Assembly: GCF_009662475.1 (NCBI RefSeq)
Contig: NZ_CP045571.1
Span: 1,796,501 to 1,860,500, forward strand
Reading direction: 5' to 3'
Length of the DNA stretch: 64,000 bases
Origin: Acidithiobacillus thiooxidans ATCC 19377
Lineage (GTDB): Bacteria > Pseudomonadota > Gammaproteobacteria > Acidithiobacillales > Acidithiobacillaceae
Part shown: positions 28,825 through 57,983 of the stretch, one piece after another
Numbering within the stretch: position 1 is the first letter of the stretch
Layout: every line of letters begins with the position of its first letter
Notes under the pieces: model-generated
Database searches by the model: none
What the model was told of the DNA's origin: nothing
Seen by the model: the letters and a program-made list of their open reading frames with translations, nothing else
Made by a program: the position numbers and the translations under genes

Positions 28825-29541
28825 TCAATGCATACCGCTGGCAATTTTTCGTAGCGACGCGCGCTGAACCATAATGCGCTGACCGGATTCACGCAGATAT
28901 CCGTGTCTCTTGAAATCCGCCATGACTCTCGAAACATGTGCAGAAGAAAGCCCGAGATAACCGGCAATTTCTTTACGTGCCATAGGGAAAGGGACCCAGG
29001 CACCATCGGGGAACACGCCGCACCAGTGGTATAAAAATGCCGCCAGGCAGGCATCGGCCTTCCCTGCTCCCACTTCCACAATATGGAATTCAGACTCTTC
29101 CAGTGCTCTCTGCCATCGCTCCAGCAATGCCCTTCGCACGTGGGGGAGGTCTTCTGACAAACGGTTTAATTCCGATATATCCAGCAAACATAAATCAGCG
29201 GCATCTAATGTTGTGGCGGTATGCGGATAACGGGGATGTGAATGATTCAAGCCCTCAAATCCCAACAGATCGCCATGACGCAATAGCCGAACAATTTTTT
29301 CCACCCCATGAAGCGGTGATTCCAGACTGAGTTTGATGACACCAGACCGCAAGGTAAACGCATGGCGGGCGCTTTCGCCCTGATGGTAAAGCACTTCTCC
29401 AGCAGGCAGATGAATATCCTGTACGGTCATCCCCAGATTGTCTAATTCTTGCACAGTGAGCCCTGCAAAAATGCTCAACTGGCGCATGGGACAAAGCTGA
29501 CAATCTGACTGGCCCGTCAGATGCCATGACGCTGAATGCAT
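28825..29541 (-). CDS. CRP/FNR-family regulator with three FNR-like cysteines (locus 1)
   Basis: A 238-residue regulator. The cyclic-nucleotide-fold domain starts SIFAGLTVQELDNLGMTVQD, and the C-terminal helix-turn-helix is RKEIAGYLGLSSAHVSRVMA. Cys14, Cys17 and Cys118 align with E. coli FNR Cys20, Cys23 and Cys122; the position of Cys29 is Ser23. A [4Fe-4S] sensor with a non-cysteine fourth ligand is therefore possible. In the recognition helix the FNR Glu209 position is Ala while Ser-Arg is kept, so its DNA target should differ from TTGAT. It is the last gene of the cydA-cydB operon and probably regulates it. A similar protein sits at the second cydAB locus. Confidence 0.85.
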   Translation of the reverse strand: MHSASWHLTGQSDCQLCPMRQLSIFAGLTVQELDNLGMTVQDIHLPAGEVLYHQGESARHAFTLRSGVIKLSLESPLHGVEKIVRLLRHGDLLGFEGLNHSHPRYPHTATTLDAADLCLLDISELNRLSEDLPHVRRALLERWQRALEESEFHIVEVGAGKADACLAAFLYHWCGVFPDGAWVPFPMARKEIAGYLGLSSAHVSRVMADFKRHGYLRESGQRIMVQRASLRKIASGMH

Positions 29542-30245: not shown

Positions 30246-31328
30246 TTAATGACCGCCGTAACTGGCCATTTTTGTGGTGCGACCCCGAAACACCCAGATT
30301 TGATAAGCGTTGTACATGATCATGATGGGTACAAACCCGGTCATGAATAAGGTAAACACGGCAATGGAGTTGGCCGGATTGGCGGCCGCCTGGATGGTCC
30401 AGGTTTCCGGAACAATGTAGGGAAACATCGTAGCCCACATGGCAAACCACAGGAGAACCACCACCCCTTCACCCCACAGCAGGGCGGCTAAGTCTTTTTG
30501 CATGGAGTGGTTCATCATGGATTTAAAGGCAAAGAACAGAACTACCAAGAGCCAGATGGCCCATACCCACCAATAAGGGCCAGTCCATTTTGCCGCTGCC
30601 CAGGGGAATATGGCATAGGACCATACCAGCGTGACGACAATGGCCGCTAAGGCCAGGTAGGAAAAAAGGGTGGTCCAGCGCTGTGCCTTGACGTTGATCG
30701 GATCGCCTTTTTCAAAGCGTGCACTCAGGTAAAGACCGCCGGCCAGTCCGGCCGCGATGACCGCGCCAAAACCGGTGAAGATACTGAAAGGAGTCAGAAA
30801 AGAGAGGGCCGTCCCGGTAAAATGGGGAACGGGCGAATTCACAAACAGGCCCGGAGCCCCTTTGGCCATGGCCTCACCGGCCTTCATGGGGAAGCCCTGC
30901 AAGGTCGCCCCCAAAGCCACACCTGCCCCGAAAGGCGCCATAAAACTCCCGACGGCAAAGGCCCAACCCCAAAAGCGCTTGCTTCCGGTTGCGTGGACAT
31001 GAAACTCAAAGGCTACAGCCCGCGAAATGACGCCCCATAAAGCGAACATCAAAGGAATCATCAGATAGTTGAAGGCCGATCCATACACCAGCGGAAAAGC
31101 ACCGAACAGCACGCCGCCGGCAACAACCAGCCAGGTTTCATTGCCATCCCACATACCGGCCATGGAAGCCATAATGGCGCCCCGCTCCTGCTCATCGGGA
31201 GAAAAAAGCGCAAACACCCCGGCGCCGAGATCGGCACCGTCCAGGGCAATGAAGAAAAGAAACAGTAGACTGAGTAACAGCCACCACCACGTCGTTAGAG
31301 TGGTAGCGATTCTGGCGAGATCAAACAT
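30246..31328 (-). CDS. cydB: Cytochrome bd-type ubiquinol oxidase subunit II (locus 1)
   Basis: A 360-residue polytopic protein with AAGGAG before ATG 31328. CydB signatures include FLFFIALDGADLGAGVFALF, GMWDGNETWLVVAGGVLFGA and SRAVAFEFHVHA. It pairs with subunit I encoded 40 bp upstream. The enzyme oxidises quinol and reduces oxygen to water with high affinity, at the cytoplasmic membrane. About 60% of its residues by eye match the paralogue at 56904-57983. First in an operon that continues with two small genes and a CRP/FNR-type regulator. Confidence 0.95.
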   Translation of the reverse strand: MFDLARIATTLTTWWWLLLSLLFLFFIALDGADLGAGVFALFSPDEQERGAIMASMAGMWDGNETWLVVAGGVLFGAFPLVYGSAFNYLMIPLMFALWGVISRAVAFEFHVHATGSKRFWGWAFAVGSFMAPFGAGVALGATLQGFPMKAGEAMAKGAPGLFVNSPVPHFTGTALSFLTPFSIFTGFGAVIAAGLAGGLYLSARFEKGDPINVKAQRWTTLFSYLALAAIVVTLVWSYAIFPWAAAKWTGPYWWVWAIWLLVVLFFAFKSMMNHSMQKDLAALLWGEGVVVLLWFAMWATMFPYIVPETWTIQAAANPANSIAVFTLFMTGFVPIMIMYNAYQIWVFRGRTTKMASYGGH

Positions 31329-31368: not shown

Positions 31369-32823
31369 TTAATGGGTTTTCCCAAAGGTCGGTTTGGCAA
31401 AGGTCGGTTTCGCCAATCCACCACCGGCGTGTTCCTGATCAGCATGCTGCTCTGGCGCACCCGGTAAAGGACTTTCCAGATCCGGTCCCTTGCGGATCAC
31501 GCGGGAGAAGAAATACCAGGCACCGGCCCAGACGGTCAGTTCAAAAACGCCATATCCGAGAAACCAGACGATTTCCTGGCCAAGCCCCATGTGACTGGTG
31601 CCCTCATAGGTGCGCATGAGGTTATAAACTACCCAGGGTTGACGCCCTACTTCGCGGGTCCACCAGCCGGTCCAGACGGCCAGATACGGTAAAAAAGCAC
31701 TAAAGACCATGGCCCGCAAAAACCAGGGGCGTTTACGCAATCCCTCCACCGTCAGTTGGCCGCGCAGGATGAGCATGGTGCCCCACAACGCCATAAAGAA
31801 CAGGAAAAAGCCGATAGCGACCATGATCCGGAAGGAATAGAAAGGGACCCAGACATCGGGGCGATCCTTGGCCGGGAACTGATCCAGACCGGGAACCACG
31901 CCATTCAGGGTATGGGTTTCCAGCAGGCTTAACACATGGGGAATACGGATTGAAAACAGACTTCCATCATTGGCAGCATTGGGAATGGCAATCAGATTCC
32001 AGGAAGTGTTCGGCTTACCATCCGGTAAATAAGTGTGATAATGCCCTTCCATGGCGGCCAGTGTGGTCGGTTCGCTATGGGCCACATCGACCCCCAGACT
32101 GTCGCCTAACCAGATTTGTATTGGTGTCGCGATCAATAAAGCCAGAATGGCGGGTTTCAGCATCTTGACGAACAAATCGGCGTGACGATTCTTGAGAATA
32201 AACCAGGCACTGGTCCCGGCCAGTACAAAAAAGCCCAGGATCATGGTAGCCACCCACATATGCGGGAAACCCCATTCATTACTTTCATTGAAAATGGCAC
32301 TCCACCAATTGGTCACCTGAAACAGACCGTCTTTCAGCACGACACCATCAGGAGTCTGCATCCAGCCATTGGCCACCAGAATCCAGTAGGCCGACAAACT
32401 GGAAGCAAACGCCACGTTAAAGGTAGAGAACAAATGCATACCTTTGCCGATCTTGTTCCAACCAAACACCATGAGGCCAATGAAGCCGGCTTCATACATA
32501 AAGGCGGTAATGGTTTCAAAGCCCAGAATATTCCCGAAGAAGGGACCCACGGCCTGAGAAAACGGGCCATAGAGAATGCCGAAGGCCATTTCCATGGTGA
32601 CACCGGTAGCCACACCGGCGCCGAAATTGACAATAAAGATTTTTTCAAAAAAGCGCTCCAGACGGTACCATCGTTCGTCTCCAGAACGCAGCCAGGCTAC
32701 CTCCAATCCGAAAAGAATCCATGACACCCCGATAGTTAGGGGCGTCCATAGGATGTGCATGGAGGTAATCCAGGCAAAATCCAGCCGACTCAGAAGAATC
32801 GGCAAAGTATTTTCTACGAGCAT
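31369..32823 (-). CDS. cydA: Cytochrome bd-type ubiquinol oxidase subunit I (locus 1)
   Basis: A 484-residue CydA with GAGGAG before ATG 32823. Heme ligand candidates are His23 (ITSMHILWT, equivalent to E. coli His19), the His in FPHMWVA, and the Met in TSHMGLGQE. The conserved TGWWTREVGRQPWVVYNLMR is present. The quinol-binding Q loop is of the short, cyanide-insensitive-oxidase-like type. Residues 450-484 end in a Pro/Phe/Lys repeat (AKPTFAKPTF), also found in the second CydA. A palindromic operator candidate lies 164 bp upstream. Confidence 0.95.
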   Translation of the reverse strand: MLVENTLPILLSRLDFAWITSMHILWTPLTIGVSWILFGLEVAWLRSGDERWYRLERFFEKIFIVNFGAGVATGVTMEMAFGILYGPFSQAVGPFFGNILGFETITAFMYEAGFIGLMVFGWNKIGKGMHLFSTFNVAFASSLSAYWILVANGWMQTPDGVVLKDGLFQVTNWWSAIFNESNEWGFPHMWVATMILGFFVLAGTSAWFILKNRHADLFVKMLKPAILALLIATPIQIWLGDSLGVDVAHSEPTTLAAMEGHYHTYLPDGKPNTSWNLIAIPNAANDGSLFSIRIPHVLSLLETHTLNGVVPGLDQFPAKDRPDVWVPFYSFRIMVAIGFFLFFMALWGTMLILRGQLTVEGLRKRPWFLRAMVFSAFLPYLAVWTGWWTREVGRQPWVVYNLMRTYEGTSHMGLGQEIVWFLGYGVFELTVWAGAWYFFSRVIRKGPDLESPLPGAPEQHADQEHAGGGLAKPTFAKPTFGKTH

Positions 32824-32986
32824 GATAAACTCCTCGCTTTAATAGCGGCGTTAAAAAATGGCAAACATATTACCGAATCTATAACAGCAATAAATGTGCC
32901 AGTTATCCGCTCTATAATTAATCAGTATGTTGCGTTTTAAAAATGATTTTTCGCAAAAAAATAATGGGAGATACAACCGGTTCATG

Positions 32987-33002
32987 TGGTTCGTATAAAC
33001 CA
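32987..33002. promoter_or_regulatory. TGGTT-N6-AACCA palindrome upstream of cydA (locus 1)
   Basis: TGGTTCGTATAAACCA lies between the divergent cydA and higA-like genes. The same architecture occurs three times upstream of the second cydA (55245-55303). The 16-bp geometry with a six-base spacer is that of CRP-family sites, but the half-site is not the TGTGA or TTGAT consensus. Which protein binds is not known. Confidence 0.6.
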
Positions 33003-33052: not shown

Positions 33053-33358
33053 ATGACCAGAAATGGAATGCGCCCTATTCATCCGGGCGAAGTATTACGT
33101 GAGGAGTTTTTGGCCCCGCTGAAAATGACACCACATACATTGGCTATGGCATTGCGGGTGCCGTCACCACGTATCCATGAGATCATTCGTGAGCGTCGGG
33201 CAGTTTCACCAGATACGGCATTGCGTTTGTCCCGCTACTTTCAGACCAGTCCGGAATTCTGGTTGGGACTACAAGTTGCTTACGATCTGCGGAAAACGGA
33301 AAACGGGGTGGGCGCCACCATTGCCCGCGAAGTACAGCCCAGACAACAAGTGGCATAA
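33053..33358 (+). CDS. HigA-family antitoxin-like regulator, no adjacent HigB
   Basis: A 101-residue XRE-type protein. ATG 33053 has AAAGGA upstream; the frame is open to 33011. It opens with the HigA signature RPIHPGEVLREEFLAPLKMT, then LAMALRVPSPRIHEIIRERR and DTALRLSRYFQTSPEFWLGL. Genuine HigA antitoxins follow a higB toxin gene, but none is present between this gene and cydA. It may be a solitary regulator that binds in the shared intergenic region with cydA, or a relic of a lost module. Confidence 0.85.
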   Translation: MTRNGMRPIHPGEVLREEFLAPLKMTPHTLAMALRVPSPRIHEIIRERRAVSPDTALRLSRYFQTSPEFWLGLQVAYDLRKTENGVGATIAREVQPRQQVA

Positions 33359-47206: not shown

Positions 47207-48502
47207 ATGGACAGTTTGATTGAAGACATTATCGCCCGCGAAATTCTGGATTCTCGCGGTAATCCCACAGTAGAAGTGGAAGTTTATCTCAGCAACGGGC
47301 AACACGCCCGCACCGCCGTCCCTTCCGGAGCTTCCACCGGCAGCAAGGAAGCGGTGGAACTCCGTGACGGCGATACCCTTCGTTTTGGTGGCAAAGGCGT
47401 CCGCCAGGTCATTCAGAATATTGAGGAGATCATTGCCCCCGACTTGCAGGATCTGGATGTGCGCGATCAAAAATCCATTGACGAGACCATGATCGGTCTG
47501 GATGGCACGGATAACAAAAGCAAGCTCGGTGCCAATGCCATTCTCGGCGTGTCCATGGCCTGCGCCCGAGCCGCCGCTGATTATTGTGACCTGCCGCTGT
47601 ATGCTTACCTGGGTGGACCCGGTGCTACCCGCCTGCCTGTGCCCTGTTTTAATGTGCTGAATGGTGGCGTCCATGCGCACTGGCAGGGGGCTGATTTTCA
47701 GGAATGCATGCTGGTTCCCTATGGGGCTGACAGCTTCCGCGAATCGCTCCGCTGGGGTGCGGAAATCTACCATGCGTTGCAGGCCCTGCTCCTCGAAAAA
47801 CATCTTTCCGTCGGCGTCGGTGACGAAGGCGGCTTTGCCCCCGCCGTCGATTCCAATCATGAATCCTATGACCTGCTTGTCGAGGCCATCCGCCGTGCCG
47901 GATTTGAACCCGGAAAAGATTGCGGCATCGCCATTGATCCGGCTTCTTCGGAATTCTTCAAAGACGGAAAATACCAGCTGCGCACGGAAAACCGGGCTCT
48001 CAGCAGCGCGGAAATGGTCGATTATTATGCAGAAATCGTCCGTAATTACCCGGTGGTTCTGCTGGAAGATGGTTTGGCCGAAGACGACTGGGAAAACTGG
48101 AAGCTACTCAATGAAAAACTGGGTAGCAGCATCGAACTGGTGGGCGATGATATTTTCTGCACCAATCCGAAAATCATTGCTCAGGCCATTGAAGACAACA
48201 TTGCCAATGCAACGCTGATCAAGCTCAACCAGATTGGCACAGTCACCGAAACCATCGCCGCCACCCGGCTGGCTCAATTCCATGGTTGGGGAGCTTTCGT
48301 CTCGCATCGATCCGGCGAAACCACCGACGATTTCATTGCTGACCTGACCGTGGCCCTGGACACCGGTCACCTGAAGTCCGGCGCACCGGCCCGGGGTGAA
48401 CGGGTGGCCAAATACAACCAGTTACTGCGGATTGAAGAAGAACTGGGCACAGCCGCCAGTTTTGCCGGTAAAAAGGCTTTTGTTCGGCCGGTACGTGGAT
48501 AA
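47207..48502 (+). CDS. eno: Enolase
   Basis: A 431-residue enolase with AGGAGAG upstream of ATG 47207. REILDSRGNPTVEVEV, PSGASTGSKEAVELRDGD, catalytic GDEGGFAPAVDSN, LLEDGLAEDDWENWKLLNEK, LVGDDIFCTN, LIKLNQIGTVTETIAA and VSHRSGETTDDFIADL are all in place. It converts 2-phosphoglycerate to phosphoenolpyruvate. Position after pyk reverses the pathway order but keeps the two steps coupled. Confidence 0.95.
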   Translation: MDSLIEDIIAREILDSRGNPTVEVEVYLSNGQHARTAVPSGASTGSKEAVELRDGDTLRFGGKGVRQVIQNIEEIIAPDLQDLDVRDQKSIDETMIGLDGTDNKSKLGANAILGVSMACARAAADYCDLPLYAYLGGPGATRLPVPCFNVLNGGVHAHWQGADFQECMLVPYGADSFRESLRWGAEIYHALQALLLEKHLSVGVGDEGGFAPAVDSNHESYDLLVEAIRRAGFEPGKDCGIAIDPASSEFFKDGKYQLRTENRALSSAEMVDYYAEIVRNYPVVLLEDGLAEDDWENWKLLNEKLGSSIELVGDDIFCTNPKIIAQAIEDNIANATLIKLNQIGTVTETIAATRLAQFHGWGAFVSHRSGETTDDFIADLTVALDTGHLKSGAPARGERVAKYNQLLRIEEELGTAASFAGKKAFVRPVRG

Positions 48503-53448: not shown

Positions 53449-53812
53449 ATAGATACTCCTTAAATTAAGCATGTCGCCGCCCAGATGATTCATTCTACCG
53501 GTAGTGGCCGTGGGTGCTTTTTGCTCCATTGTTCCTTGCCTGTTGTTCTAAGGCTCATCCTGCTGTCAGGAGAGAACTCGCCCTACGGGCTCAAACATCT
53601 CCTCCTGACGGGCGCAGGACTTCACCAAGAACAACGACGGCCCAGAACAAAAGTCGCTGAAAAGCATCCACGGCAACTGCCGTTAGGTTCATCGGGACAG
53701 CTACATCAAAGGATTGGATATCTGGTGAACATATCATCATCAGAACTTACTTAGTGGTAAGTATCCTGCAGTCACCACAAAGCGGCATTGATAAAAATCA
53801 ATTTTGACTGAT
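53449..53812. other. 364-bp intergenic region with nested inverted repeats
   Basis: No convincing gene. GTCAGGAG (53565-53572) and CTCCTGAC (53602-53609) form an outer inverted repeat around an inner GCCC-TAC-GGGC (53580-53590). A short leftward frame (53692-53591, 33 codons) is open but has no family match I recognise. An FNR-type box is listed separately at its right end. Confidence 0.45.
53788..53801. promoter_or_regulatory. Perfect FNR-type box TTGATAAAAATCAA
   Basis: Matches the FNR consensus TTGAT-N4-ATCAA exactly. It lies between the end of the CRP/FNR-type gene and the two-repeat hypothetical gene, 340 bp before the latter's start. It may control that gene, or merely be part of the regulator's 3' hairpin region, because the half-sites also pair with each other. 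Confidence 0.4.
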
Positions 53813-54532
53813 TTAGTCGGGTTTATGCGCTTCAGACAGGCCGGCAATATGCGCAAGACTTTTTGGTTTCAAGATTTCCAGTTGACTGCCCTGCTCCTGA
53901 ATCAACGCCTTACGCTTAAAATCTGCCATAATCCGACTGACATGCTCGGTAGATAGCCCCAGAAAGGCGGCGATATCTGTTCGCGTTAACGGGAAAGGCA
54001 AACTGCGTAACTGCGGATAGCGCCGGGCCCATTGCAGTAAAAAAGTCGCCAGCCGGGCCTCGGCCCGTTTAGCGCCCAGCTCAATAATCCGTTCTTCACT
54101 TTTTTGCAGGGCGTCCTGCCAACGCTGCAAAATGGCCGCCCGAACTTTGGGCAGACGTTCCGACAAGCGCTGGAGTTCTGCCAGATCAAGTCGACAGAGC
54201 TGACTCGGAGCAAGAACGATAGCACTATGGCGATGATGTTCTCCCTGCATGCCTTCAAAACCAAGCAGATCTCCGTGATGGAGTAAACGAACGATAACGT
54301 CCTGACCACTTTCCAGAGAACATACCAGCTTCACCGCACCATTTCGCAAGGTATAAGCATATCGAGCAGGTTCTTTCATCCGATAAAGAACGTCCCCTTG
54401 CCGACCCTCTATATCCTGCACTTCCATCCCCAGACTGCAGAGTTCTTCGGTATTCAGTCCTGCAAATATACTTTGGTCGCGCATGCGACATTGCAGGCAA
54501 TCAGAACGTTTGCTGGCAATTTCGCTGTTCAT
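53813..54532 (-). CDS. CRP/FNR-family regulator with three FNR-like cysteines (locus 2)
   Basis: A 239-residue regulator starting at ATG 54532; a longer frame uses a TTG overlapping the upstream SPOR gene. It shares SDC-x2-C near the N-terminus (Cys12, Cys15), SIFAGLNTEELCSLGMEVQD, the cluster-region cysteine in SQLCRLDLAELQRL, and the helix-turn-helix RTDIAAFLGLSTEHVSRIMA with the regulator at 28825-29541. The FNR Cys29 position is Ser21. The FNR base-contact residues Glu-Ser-Arg are all kept here (TEHVSR), so it could read TTGAT-type sites. It is encoded divergently from cydAB locus 2, after a SPOR-domain gene. Confidence 0.85.
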   Translation of the reverse strand: MNSEIASKRSDCLQCRMRDQSIFAGLNTEELCSLGMEVQDIEGRQGDVLYRMKEPARYAYTLRNGAVKLVCSLESGQDVIVRLLHHGDLLGFEGMQGEHHRHSAIVLAPSQLCRLDLAELQRLSERLPKVRAAILQRWQDALQKSEERIIELGAKRAEARLATFLLQWARRYPQLRSLPFPLTRTDIAAFLGLSTEHVSRIMADFKRKALIQEQGSQLEILKPKSLAHIAGLSEAHKPD

Positions 54533-54540
54533 GAACCCAT

Positions 54541-55155
54541 TTATTGAGTAGCCCAATACTGTGGATAGGCACCCTTCTGCCTGGATTTTTTGCCAATTCC
54601 CGTGGCCGCTGATCCTGCCTCGCTTTTGCTGGATTGCGGCCCCACCAGCACCCGAAACAGGTGGTTAACGGAAAGCGTCCCCACGCAGGCTTTGACACCC
54701 ACTTTATCGACTTCTTGCAGCAATTGTTCAGCCATGGTGACTTTTCCAAAAGCACCCAGTTGCACATACCAACCGGCTTGCTGACAAGCATGGGGAATGG
54801 GTACCGGTTTAACGGCTGCGGGAACAGCTGACGCAACGTTGGCAGGGCCCGGAGATGACTCTGCGGACACCGGTGAAGTAGGAGAACGGGTTGCCGAAGT
54901 CAGTAACAGCGTTTTGGCTGTGGATACTGCTGAACCGGTCGGGGCAGACGTTTTCGGCAAGGTCAGGAATACACTGGTGGAATCTGAAGTGATCATTTTG
55001 ACTTTTCCAGGTTCGGAAACAGCCGAAGATTTCCAGATAAAGGAAACAAACAACAAAATGACCAGCAAAAAAATAATGAAAATCAGCACACCCAAGCGCA
55101 TGCGCCCGGTCTGCATCTCCCGGGTCGGTCTGGCGACATTATCTGTATTTTTCAT
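54541..55155 (-). CDS. SPOR-domain membrane-anchored protein
   Basis: A 204-residue protein starting at ATG 55155. A single membrane segment (LGVLIFIIFLLVILLFVSFI, about residues 20-40) is followed by a Ser/Thr/Pro/Ala-rich periplasmic linker and a C-terminal SPOR domain (WYVQLGAFGKVTMAEQLLQE, then KACVGTLSVNHLFRVLVGP), which binds denuded septal peptidoglycan. Its stop lies eight bases before the CRP/FNR-type regulator's ATG, so they are co-transcribed. Why a cell-wall protein is coupled to this regulator is unclear. Confidence 0.85.
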   Translation of the reverse strand: MKNTDNVARPTREMQTGRMRLGVLIFIIFLLVILLFVSFIWKSSAVSEPGKVKMITSDSTSVFLTLPKTSAPTGSAVSTAKTLLLTSATRSPTSPVSAESSPGPANVASAVPAAVKPVPIPHACQQAGWYVQLGAFGKVTMAEQLLQEVDKVGVKACVGTLSVNHLFRVLVGPQSSKSEAGSAATGIGKKSRQKGAYPQYWATQ

Positions 55156-55244: not shown

Positions 55245-55303
55245 TGGTTTATATAAACCAATGCGGTTGATATAAACCAATTCATCATGGGTGAAATAAA
55301 CCA
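55245..55303. promoter_or_regulatory. Three tandem TGGTT-N6-AACCA-type palindromes upstream of cydA (locus 2)
   Basis: Site 1 (55245-55260) is the perfect palindrome TGGTTTATATAAACCA; site 2 (55264-55279) is CGGTTGATATAAACCA; site 3 (55288-55303) is TGGGTGAAATAAACCA. Centres are 19 and 24 bp apart. They lie between the divergent SPOR-regulator and cydAB transcription units, and match the single site upstream of cydA locus 1. Confidence 0.65.
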
Positions 55304-55443
55304 AAAGCAACCGACGCATCATTACATAATAATATAAGACCATGTTTTTATATGACTCATATCCGAGCAATTCAGTCAGGAACAAAAGATGCTTTTATCC
55401 CCGGTAGTAACACCTAAAAACAACCGTTCACGAGGATTCAACT

Positions 55444-56892
55444 ATGATTATTGAAGACACTTTACCCGTGCTTCTCAGTCGCCTCGATTTTGCCTTCATC
55501 ACCTCCATGCATATTCTCTGGACTCCGGTGACCATTGGCATGTCCTGGCTGCTATTTTTTCTGGAGGTGGCCTGGCTGAAGACCGGCAATGAACACTGGT
55601 ACCGCCTGCAGCGCTTCTTTGAAAAGCTTTTTATCGTCAATTTCGGCGCTGGTGTGGCCACGGGCGTGACCATGGAAATGGCCTTCGGCATTTTGTACGG
55701 CCCTTTCTCCCAGGCTGTTGGCCCTTTTTTCGGAAACATTCTCGGCTTTGAAACCATCACCGCCTTCATGTACGAGGCCGGCTTCATTGGCCTGATGATT
55801 TTTGGCTGGGGCAAAATCGGCAAGGGCATGCATGCTTTTGCAACCTTCAACGTGGCCCTTTCATCCAGTCTTTCAGCCATGTGGATTCTGGTCGCCAACG
55901 GCTGGATGCAGTCTCCCACCGGAATTCAACTGAAAGATGGGCTGTTTCAGGTCACCAACTGGTGGCAAGCCATTTTTAACCCGAACTTTAATATCGGCTT
56001 CCCGCATATGTGGGTAGCTACCGTAGAATTAGCCCTGTTTTTCTTCGCGGCGGTCAGCGCCTGGTTTATTTTGAAAAATCGCCAGGCCAATTTGTTTACC
56101 AAACTCTTGAAGCCGACTTTGCTGGCACTGATCATCATCACCCCGCTGCAGATTTTTATTGGTGATGAACTGGGTCGGGAAGTGGCACACGACCAGCCCA
56201 CCTCTCTCGCGGCCATGGAAGGCCATTTCCACACCTATCTGCCTGATGGTAAGCCCAACACCAGCTGGAATCTGATTGCCATTCCAGATGTTTCAGCAGG
56301 AAAAAATCTGTTCTCCATCCAGATTCCTCATGTTCTCAGCTTGCTCGAAACCCATACCTGGGACGGAGTAGTCACCGGTATGGATCATTTTGCTCCGAAT
56401 GATCGACCCAATGTCTGGGTGCCCTTTTATGCCTTCAGGGTGATGGTCGCCATCGGCTTCTTCCTGTTTTTCATGGCACTCTGGGGTAACTGGTTGCGCT
56501 TGCGGGGGAAATTGACTGCAGAACATTTGCGTAAGAATCCGTTGTTCCTGCGTCTGCTGGTGTTCAGTGGATTCCTGCCCTATCTCGCCGTCTGGACCGG
56601 CTGGTGGACACGTGAAATAGGCCGTCAGCCCTGGGTTGTTTATAACCTGATGCGGACTTGGCAGGGTGTCAGCCATATGGGAGTCACTGCTGAATCCTTC
56701 TGGCTGATTGGCTACATCATTTTCGAACTGATGGTTTGGGGGGGTGCCTGGTACTTCTTTACCCGGGTTATCCAAAAAGGACCCGATATGACCAGCCCGG
56801 TCATTGGTGCTTCGGATCATGATGCCCATCCATCCGGTGGCGGAATTGCCAAGCCGACTTTCGCCAAACCGATAATGAACAAGCTGAACTGA
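55444..56892 (+). CDS. cydA: Cytochrome bd-type ubiquinol oxidase subunit I (locus 2)
   Basis: A 482-residue CydA, closely related to the one at 31369-32823 over its whole length. His23 (ITSMHILWT), the His in FPHMWVA, the Met in VSHMGVTAE and TGWWTREIGRQPWVVYNLMR mark the heme and quinol sites. It has the same AKPTFAKP-like tail. GAGGAT precedes the ATG at suitable spacing. It is followed 11 bp later by cydB. Having a second complete copy suggests oxidases expressed under different oxygen or acid conditions. Confidence 0.95.
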   Translation: MIIEDTLPVLLSRLDFAFITSMHILWTPVTIGMSWLLFFLEVAWLKTGNEHWYRLQRFFEKLFIVNFGAGVATGVTMEMAFGILYGPFSQAVGPFFGNILGFETITAFMYEAGFIGLMIFGWGKIGKGMHAFATFNVALSSSLSAMWILVANGWMQSPTGIQLKDGLFQVTNWWQAIFNPNFNIGFPHMWVATVELALFFFAAVSAWFILKNRQANLFTKLLKPTLLALIIITPLQIFIGDELGREVAHDQPTSLAAMEGHFHTYLPDGKPNTSWNLIAIPDVSAGKNLFSIQIPHVLSLLETHTWDGVVTGMDHFAPNDRPNVWVPFYAFRVMVAIGFFLFFMALWGNWLRLRGKLTAEHLRKNPLFLRLLVFSGFLPYLAVWTGWWTREIGRQPWVVYNLMRTWQGVSHMGVTAESFWLIGYIIFELMVWGGAWYFFTRVIQKGPDMTSPVIGASDHDAHPSGGGIAKPTFAKPIMNKLN

Positions 56893-56903
56893 GGACCGAT
56901 ACC

Positions 56904-57983
56904 ATGCATGAAATATTTCGCATTCATAGCACCTTAAGTACATTCTGGTGGATTTTGTTAGGGGTTTTCTTCGTCATTTATATTGTTCTCGACGGCGCGG
57001 ATCTGGGGGCCGGCGTATTTTCCCTGCTCCTCAACAACGAGAATGATCGGGCGGCCGTCATGTCCTCCATGGCGGGCACCTGGGATGCCAATGAAACCTG
57101 GCTGGTGGTGGCCGGTGGCGTGATTTTCGGGGCCTTTCCTCTGGTTTATGGGTCCACATTCAATTATCTGATGATCCCGTTGATGTTTGCGCTCTGGGGC
57201 ATCATTTCCCGGGCGGTGGCCTTTGAATTTCATGTCCACGCCAAAAGCAGCCGCAAATTCTGGGGCTTCATGTTTGGCCTTGGCAGTCTGGTCGCGGCCC
57301 TTTTTGCGGGGATTGCACTTGGAGCTACCTTGCTGGGCTTTCCGATGAATACCGGCAACGCGCAAGGCATTCAGGTGGCCAATGACCCGTTTGTGAATAC
57401 GGTTCCGCACTTTTCCGGCAACGCCCTGAGCTTTCTTTCTGCTTTCAGCATCTGGACAGGCATTGGGGCGTTGATCGCCGGCGGTCTGGCAGGCACCTTG
57501 TACCTTTGTGCCCGTTTTGAGCAGGATGATCCCATCTACCAGAAGGCTCACAAGTCTGCCACTCTGTTTTCTTTCCTGGCGCTGGCGGCGGTAGTCATCA
57601 CCTTGATCTGGTCCTACGCGATCATGCCCGATGCCGCCAAGTGGACGGGGAGCGGCTGGTTCGGCTGGCTGATTTTGCTCATTGCCATCCTGATTTCTGC
57701 CTACAAAATGATGAGCAATCACGCAGCCCACCGTGATTTCGCCGCACTGCTCTGGTGTGGCGCCATTGTGTTGTTCATGTGGGGCGGGATGTGGGCCACC
57801 AATTTCCCCTACATCATTCCGCAGACCTGGACCATCAGTCAGGGCGGCAATCCGGCTAATGACCTGGCCATCCTGACCCTGTTCATGACGGGATTCGTGC
57901 CGGTCATGATTACTTACAACATCTATCAGATCTGGGTGTTTCGCAAGCGCATCACCCATCTGGCCGGTTATGAAAGTCATTAA
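56904..57983 (+). CDS. cydB: Cytochrome bd-type ubiquinol oxidase subunit II (locus 2)
   Basis: A 359-residue CydB with GAGGAC upstream of ATG 56904. FVIYIVLDGADLGAGVFSLL, GTWDANETWLVVAGGVIFGA, SRAVAFEFHVHAKSS and a C-terminal FRKRITHLAGYESH match the paralogue at 30246-31328. The transcript ends at a GNRA-loop terminator 27 bp downstream. Confidence 0.95.
   Translation: MHEIFRIHSTLSTFWWILLGVFFVIYIVLDGADLGAGVFSLLLNNENDRAAVMSSMAGTWDANETWLVVAGGVIFGAFPLVYGSTFNYLMIPLMFALWGIISRAVAFEFHVHAKSSRKFWGFMFGLGSLVAALFAGIALGATLLGFPMNTGNAQGIQVANDPFVNTVPHFSGNALSFLSAFSIWTGIGALIAGGLAGTLYLCARFEQDDPIYQKAHKSATLFSFLALAAVVITLIWSYAIMPDAAKWTGSGWFGWLILLIAILISAYKMMSNHAAHRDFAALLWCGAIVLFMWGGMWATNFPYIIPQTWTISQGGNPANDLAILTLFMTGFVPVMITYNIYQIWVFRKRITHLAGYESH

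Follow-up and report, generated by a model that had tools for sequence, protein, structure and literature searches.

Sulfur-oxidising Acidithiobacillia carry many cytochrome bd genes, and in the available parts of the literature no explanation was found for how these are told apart. Seven cydAB copies are reported for A. thiooxidans A01 in the accessible text of PMC4109375. The question is raised again by the window analysed here, a stretch of 64,000 nucleotides from A. thiooxidans ATCC 19377 (G000:C1:1796501-1860500), whose genome (G000) is a single contig of 3.416 Mb. The window holds two cydAB loci, and their nearest CydA records are from Acidithiobacillus, with a top identity of 98% (A. 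sulfurivorans). An earlier sequence-only reading had noticed a short dyad upstream of both cydA genes and had proposed that it marks a dedicated regulon. What this dyad does and which protein reads it were followed up in G000 and 21 genomes of Acidithiobacillia relatives (G001-G021; 22 with G000), in which L numbers denote individual loci or ORFs.

The features of the two loci are collected in Table 1. The dyads begin at 32987, 55245, 55264 and 55288, where the sequence-only reading had placed them. ATA closes the spacer and AACCA forms the right-hand arm in all four sites, and one of them, 55245 (TGGTTTATATAAACCA), is a perfect palindrome, as that reading had said. Its general formula TGGTT-N6-AACCA is exact in only two of the four sites, because 55264 and 55288 each mismatch once in the left half. 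Counterparts of the locus-1 dyad lie at -178 to -180 in G006 and G011. Counterparts of the first locus-2 dyad are found at -197 to -200 in G001, G009, G010, G011 and G016, and the 19 bp between dyads 1 and 2 is identical in these five genomes. Dyads 2 and 3 are 24 bp apart and their distance is 23-24 bp in four of the five; the G010 counterpart of dyad 3 is too degenerate for listing. The possible second site of locus 1 is at the same place in L138 and L150 and is not picked up by the site scan.

Table 1. Features of the two cydAB loci in the window (positions within the window; distances from the ATG of cydA)
Feature	Positions	Strand	Sequence	Remarks
cydB, locus 1	30246-31328	-		PF02322, E 1.2e-70
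cydA, locus 1	31369-32823	-		PF01654, E 2.4e-142
Sigma-54 -24/-12 element, locus 1	32886-32901	-	TGGCACATTTATTGCT	exact consensus match; 0 of 500 shuffles as good
IHF-like site, locus 1	32920-32932	+	AATCAGTATGTTG	no mismatch to WATCARNNNNTTR; lies between dyad and promoter
Possible degenerate second site, locus 1	32965-32980	-		half-site CGGTTG, about 23 bp closer to cydA; by eye; weak
Dyad, locus 1	32987-33002		TGGTTCGTATAAACCA (forward letters); TGGTTTATACGAACCA (towards cydA)	-179; candidate UAS
Dyad 1, locus 2	55245-55260		TGGTTTATATAAACCA	-199; perfect palindrome; candidate UAS
Dyad 2, locus 2	55264-55279		CGGTTGATATAAACCA	-180; candidate UAS
Dyad 3, locus 2	55288-55303		TGGGTGAAATAAACCA	-156; left half weaker; candidate UAS
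Candidate sigma-54 -24/-12 element, locus 2	55378-55393	+	AGGAACAAAAGATGCT	GG-N10-GC; 3 mismatches to TGGCAC-N5-TTGCW; 2 of 500 shuffles as good
cydA, locus 2 (cytochrome bd subunit I)	55444-56892	+		PF01654, E 8.6e-143
cydB, locus 2	56904-57983	+		PF02322, E 1e-69

The loose form of the motif, TGGTT-N6-AACCA with two mismatches, is barely enriched in the window, with 42 places against 30.5 expected and four of 100 shuffles containing as many. A sharpened motif, YGGTTNATATNAACCR, with at most two mismatches returned exactly the four sites, where 0.53 were expected and none of 100 shuffles reached four. Exact TGGTT-N6-AACCA occurs at six places in the genome, three of them upstream of cydA, including one outside the window (G000:C1:1373470). 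The other three (779629, 1335364 and 2592747) differ in their spacers and all lie within listed ORFs. The genome has eight cydA matches, one of long type (1207346) and seven of short type; dyads are present upstream of six of the seven short-type genes, and the seventh (2081603) has none. With at most one mismatch, all 11 places of YGGTTNATATNAACCR in G000 lie upstream of these six genes, compared with a single place for a reversed control pattern; TGGTTTATATAAACCA as a query with at most three mismatches gave 24 places versus 17 for its control. The dyads of G000 begin at 1373451/470/493, 1829487, 1851745/764/788, 2355251/274/293, 3141480 and 3207281, and four of the six dyad-bearing cyd loci are outside the window. 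These promoters were the source of YGGTTNATATNAACCR, so independent tests come from the paralogues outside the window and from the other species. The 21 promoter pairs of G000 were aligned with one another. The 1373-kb promoter, a recent copy of the one at 2355 kb, aligns with it strongly (score 157.5); the other 20 pairs score at most 27, of which 13 do not exceed the top score among 60 shuffles and seven are somewhat better than all shuffles. Since the non-duplicate pairs align poorly, the promoter regions of G000 share little beyond the elements described here.

Dyads are found in 12 of the genomes (G000, G001, G006, G009, G010, G011 and G016-G021, of which G006 is a fragmented MAG), while the ten dyad-less genomes belong to the genus of G000 and mostly have no short-type cydA. 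The motif was scored in 35 short-type promoters, namely seven of G000, 23 of relatives (G001, G003, G006, G009, G010, G011 and G016), and L053-L056 and L064, which are titled Candidatus Igneacidithiobacillus, Acidithiobacillus sp. and A. sulfuriphilus. Three fragments without a start codon (L143, L149, L154) and a promoterless 3' piece in L122 were excluded. Of the 35 promoters, 27 have a site that agrees with the motif at 9 or more of the 10 arm positions and 32 have one that agrees at 8 or more, some of the 8/10 matches being off-position and due to chance (L054 at -44, L147 at -56); in L054, two variant dyads also stand where dyads usually do. Only L123, L129 and L139 fall below 8/10, and none of the five long-type promoters scored reaches that value. 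Sites with at most two mismatches begin between -144 and -211 from the ATG. Spacings of 19 and 23-24 bp recur and 18 bp occurs once; others are seen only with three-mismatch sites or in L146+. Six related genomes repeat this position and spacing, and so do deeper lineages of the Acidithiobacillia, where the arms drift to TGGTG. The pattern gathered 62 sites. A single base aside, their GG and CC cores do not vary, and the fifth arm position is divided between T (39 sites) and G (23 sites).

The motif is present in all 16 Acidithiobacillia cydA loci L049-L064, some of which are from the same genomes as the G set, and in none of the 52 regions upstream of cydA whose titles name other lineages. 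Sharpened-motif matches away from cyd genes number 15 in the relatives. Fourteen of these were inspected (G004:C61 was left out); 12 lie within ORFs, and the two outside ORFs, L178 (G002) and L182 (G008), come from genomes that lack a short-type cydA. These 14 matches did not establish any further gene of the regulon. A scan of the whole genome and of relatives had been suggested as a check by the sequence-only reading, and with all 11 sharpened-motif places at cydA and the recurrence in relatives' cyd promoters, its view of a shared, non-consensus and conserved dyad linking paralogous cyd promoters was right. Its dedicated gene set is borne out as well, the sites being nearly confined to cyd promoters.

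Sigma-54 promoters have a -24/-12 consensus of GG-N10-GC, in full TGGCAC-N5-TTGCW. In promoters activated by a sigma-54 enhancer-binding protein (bEBP), palindromic upstream activating sequences (UAS) are located roughly 80-200 bp upstream of the promoter, and an IHF site (consensus used, WATCARNNNNTTR) between UAS and sigma-54 promoter is common, not universal. The -24/-12 scan was constrained, with GG and GC required in the last 145 bp before the gene, and an IS-split promoter was left out. TGGCAC-N5-TTGCW is exact in nine promoters, including locus 1, has one mismatch in ten and two to four in the other 15; many of the exact and one-mismatch promoters are mutually orthologous and are not independent cases. 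GG-N10-GC lies at -65 to -103 from the ATG, mostly at -65 to -79, and the dyads are about 75-100 bp further upstream. The place of the locus-2 element (-65 to -67) is kept in the corresponding promoters of G001, G009, G010, G011 and G016. With its three mismatches the locus-2 element is weak; that of the 2355-kb locus is weaker (four mismatches, 22 of 500 shuffles as good), and weak elements are also found in L053-L056 and L064 (three to four mismatches, 10-104 of 500 shuffles as good). The short-type promoters L123, L129 and L139 have a sigma-54 element without a dyad, and the short-type cydA of G003 (L147) has neither a dyad nor a convincing -24/-12 element (four mismatches, 100 of 500 shuffles). 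A window-wide scan for -24/-12 elements with one mismatch was not enriched (six places against 3.8 expected), so the sigma-54 case rests on the place of the elements and their conservation. Perfect IHF-like sites are present in 15 of the 35 promoters, whereas shuffling gives 0.55 on average and never more than 2; at locus 2 the best IHF-like site has two mismatches.

The place of the N6 dyads upstream of the -24/-12 elements matches where bEBP enhancers sit, and the dyads are therefore best read as UAS. These findings suggest, with a probability of roughly 0.8, that the dyads are UAS (enhancers) for sigma-54-dependent transcription of short-type cydAB, whichever bEBP binds them. The sequences themselves show the dyads with their spacing and conservation, their near confinement to cyd promoters, and the -24/-12 and IHF-like elements; binding, activation and looping at the dyads are inferred. 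In such a mechanism, each operon would offer its bEBP one, two or three dyads of the YGGTTNATATNAACCR type, some 140-210 bp upstream of the start codon, and in many of these promoters IHF would bend the DNA between dyads and promoter. The AAA+ ATPase of the bEBP would then open the promoter, where RNA polymerase carrying sigma-54 sits at the -24/-12 element. A 2025 survey of Acidithiobacillia sigma factors calls rpoN a fundamental housekeeping gene (PMC12194929, available text).

Regulation of another kind would be at work if the sigma-54 elements were incidental and the dyads were bound by a regulator of sigma-70 type or by a repressor dedicated to them. A sigma-70 promoter is also present at the cyd operon of A. 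ferrooxidans, as the accessible text of PMC5506826 reports, but 75-100 bp from dyad to -24/-12 is far for repression by overlap, and at most loci shuffled promoter sequence seldom yields a -24/-12 element of equal quality. This alternative is therefore considered unlikely.

The CRP operator is TGTGA-N6-TCACA and the FNR box is TTGAT-N4-ATCAA. Two CRP/FNR-type proteins are encoded near the cyd loci of the window (53813-54556 and 28825-29541), and the sequence-only reading had named them as possible binders of the dyads. In relatives from the A. thiooxidans group, homologues of these proteins are encoded close to cyd loci, the 53813-type protein has homologues in 10 of the 12 dyad-bearing genomes, and site 2 can alternatively be read as TTGATATAAACCAA, one mismatch from the FNR box. 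However, the half-site in the 62 aligned sites, which were collected with that pattern, is YGGTT/YGGTG, and the earlier statement that it is neither TGTGA nor TTGAT is correct; a perfect TTGAT-N4-ATCAA was absent from the cyd upstream regions scanned. By NCBIfam both proteins are nearest to FNR, below the cut-off. Four of the six dyad-bearing cyd loci of G000 are far from either gene, and the 53813-type gene was not found in the fetched cydA flanks of the dyad-carrying L053-L056 and L064. The 53813-type protein does not track the dyads, since dyad-bearing G006 and G021 have no close homologue and dyad-less G003, G007, G008 and G014 have homologues of 59-61% identity. CRP/FNR operators resemble the dyads as short two-fold dyads of 14-16 bp, but they have another half-site, and the dyads here are far upstream of a sigma-54-like promoter, about 75-100 bp above -24/-12. 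The dyads are real sites, but as CRP-type operators they are improbable, and the proposed link to the two nearby proteins was not upheld; it is very unlikely that these are the binders. A perfect FNR box, TTGATAAAAATCAA, is located at 53788-53801, directly past the end of the FNR-like gene 53813-54556. Because the box adjoins this gene, ordinary FNR-type specificity is suggested for its product.

The sequence-only reading had also named a HigA-like protein. A solo HigA-family gene (TIGR02607) with a possible start at 33053, 51 bp from the locus-1 dyad, would make that dyad an autoregulatory HigA operator. HigA adjoins cydA in one relative only (L150) among 47 loci tested, whereas dyads occur at cyd genes without HigA, and the chance of such an operator is negligible. 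The antitoxin gene itself (33053-33358) is divergent from cydA of locus 1, with no toxin gene between it and the cydA promoter.

The enhancer reading of the dyads has its closest known parallel in the cyd operon of A. ferrooxidans (Moinier et al. 2017, PMC5506826). As described in the available text, this cytochrome bd operon is alike in its sigma-54 promoter, mapped by 5'-RACE (TGGCACAGAGATTGCT), its predicted IHF site and the proposal of a bEBP, AFE_0957; a second, sigma-70 promoter is present too. It is unlike the operons studied here in that a long-type cydA stands behind an ETHE1-like gene (labelled by eye) and the bEBP gene is adjacent. The letters of TGGCACAGAGATTGCT are also present in L152, an A. 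ferrooxidans-type locus with TGYCA...TGRCA palindromes upstream (by eye) instead of a YGGTT dyad. G007, in which promoter letters match A. ferrooxidans cyd, has one cydA match, of long type. The second parallel is the TspS/TspR-sox system of A. caldus and A. thiooxidans, which according to the accessible part of PMC6335251 is likewise sigma-54-dependent, with a 16-bp palindromic UAS and a two-component bEBP, but differs in its UAS (TGTCCCAAATGGGACA) and in having sox genes as its target.

G000 has 19 Sigma54_activat places, of which 14 are read as bEBP ORFs, one of them split. The bEBP and neighbour labels used below (FisR-, PilR-, GlrR-, FleQ/R-, VpsR-, HupR- and NtrX-like, gpsA, secB, sqr, ETHE1 and hopanoid-type) were given by eye and are presumptive. 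Homologues were searched over all 22 genomes for L190, L194, L196 and L198. L196 (G000:C1:780957-782360) is a REC-AAA+-HTH_8 protein (domains Response_reg, Sigma54_activat and HTH_8), and its best NCBIfam match, AtoC, is far below the cut-off. Orthologues with 76-100% identity are present in all 12 dyad-bearing genomes, the G017 copy being cut by a gap and a contig end, and the recognition helix TRETLRYR is identical in the 11 copies that reach through it. None of the ten dyad-less genomes has an orthologue; their best matches are paralogues of 36-39% identity. The gene stands in a secB-like/gpsA-like/kinase/regulator/hopanoid-type row, and in none of the eight loci inspected was a cyd gene nearby. 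On the basis of this co-occurrence, AtoC-like L196 is the likeliest binder of the dyads, a proposal with about even odds, and it would pair with the membrane histidine kinase whose gene lies just ahead of its own. A GlrR2 tree of 21 genomes (G017 left out) places all ten dyad-less genomes to one side of a single branch (support 64/74), so the co-occurrence of L196 and dyad may reflect one evolutionary event. L196 probably belongs to the AtoC/AtoS group of PMC12194929, an assignment made by elimination together with that weak NCBIfam match. As far as the available text goes, this group, one of nine two-component bEBP groups, occurs exclusively in sulfur oxidisers, in most of them; the text names neither a target nor a binding site for it, and cyd, cytochrome and oxidase are absent from the main text.

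A variant within the same enhancer explanation, in which another bEBP (PilR-, GlrR-, VpsR- or FleQ/FleR-like, or another) binds the dyads, is possible but doubtful. The 14 bEBP ORFs offer a choice, and PilR-like L192 and GlrR-like L187 and L191 have orthologues in all five further dyad-bearing genomes tested, so their presence does not exclude them. However, L191 does not track the dyad, as it is also found in the ten dyad-less genomes (83-85% identity), and among the matches listed the same is suggested for L187 and L192. In the regions fetched, VpsR-like L186 was not found in G021, nor FleQ/FleR-like L185/L188 in G018. NtrX-like L197 has no GAFTGA loop, and for TspR-like L190 the published UAS differs (TGTCCCAAATGGGACA, in the accessible part of PMC6335251).

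Three bEBPs are encoded beside cyd or sulfur-oxidation genes, and the upstream repeats at those genes are different ones. L194, near the dyad-less cydA at 2081603, has orthologues (89-97%) in six of the seven dyad genomes of the genus and homologues of 58-59% in G017 and G020; it was rejected as binder because G006, G018, G019 and G021 have no such homologue and nearby sigma-54 promoters carry GTTGCA/TGCAAC repeats in place of the dyad. FisR-like L198 was rejected because it is IS-split in G000, lacks an orthologue in G010 and has its own upstream repeats, TGTCATGACA. L193, beside the long-type operon, was rejected because it has its own TGTCA-like palindromes upstream (by eye); with 77% identity to the G007 copy, it is taken to be of the AFE_0957 type. 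L190, TspR-like by its sox-type neighbours, was rejected because it is also present in dyad-less genomes and was not found in G006. The L198 gene (G000:C1:2853055-2855876, L312) adjoins an sqr-like operon and is interrupted by a transposase gene, and relatives have unsplit orthologues with TGTCATGACA repeats upstream of the sqr-like operon.

Sigma-54 control of one related cyd operon, that of A. ferrooxidans, is already published (PMC5506826). For the UAS, its reach over several operons and the probable AtoC-like reader, no earlier description was found in the literature searched; neither the letters of the dyad motif nor the combination of Acidithiobacillus bd oxidase with sigma54-dependent was found there. 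A probable shared enhancer code for most bd operons, with a candidate regulator that has no known target, and two further putative codes for the remaining ones argue against assuming FNR-style control of these oxidases.

PAS-type L194 (G000:C1:2077513-2081603; L123, L139, L354) is also near genes of Gly/Pro/Trp-rich secreted proteins with sigma-54-like promoters. The GTTGCA/TGCAAC repeats, seen by eye in both promoter sets near L194, are likely to be a second UAS code, judging from the letters of these promoters. It is tentatively put forward that the bd family of sulfur-oxidising Acidithiobacillia could be wired to several sigma-54 codes. In this proposal, YGGTTNATATNAACCR with the orphan AtoC/AtoS-like regulator would serve six short-type operons, a GTTGCA-type code with the PAS-type bEBP another, and a TGTCA-type code with a FisR-like, possibly sulfane-sulfur-sensing bEBP the long-type operon. 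If this is true, each oxidase subset would answer its own signal.

Two further observations concern single sites. A second exact TGGCAC-N5-TTGCW in the window, at 47519-47534 on the minus strand, lies within listed ORFs on both strands. At the third cydA locus (G000:C1:1373.6-1376.3 kb; L003, L122), a transposase gene splits cydA near its 5' end, and the three dyads upstream are intact.
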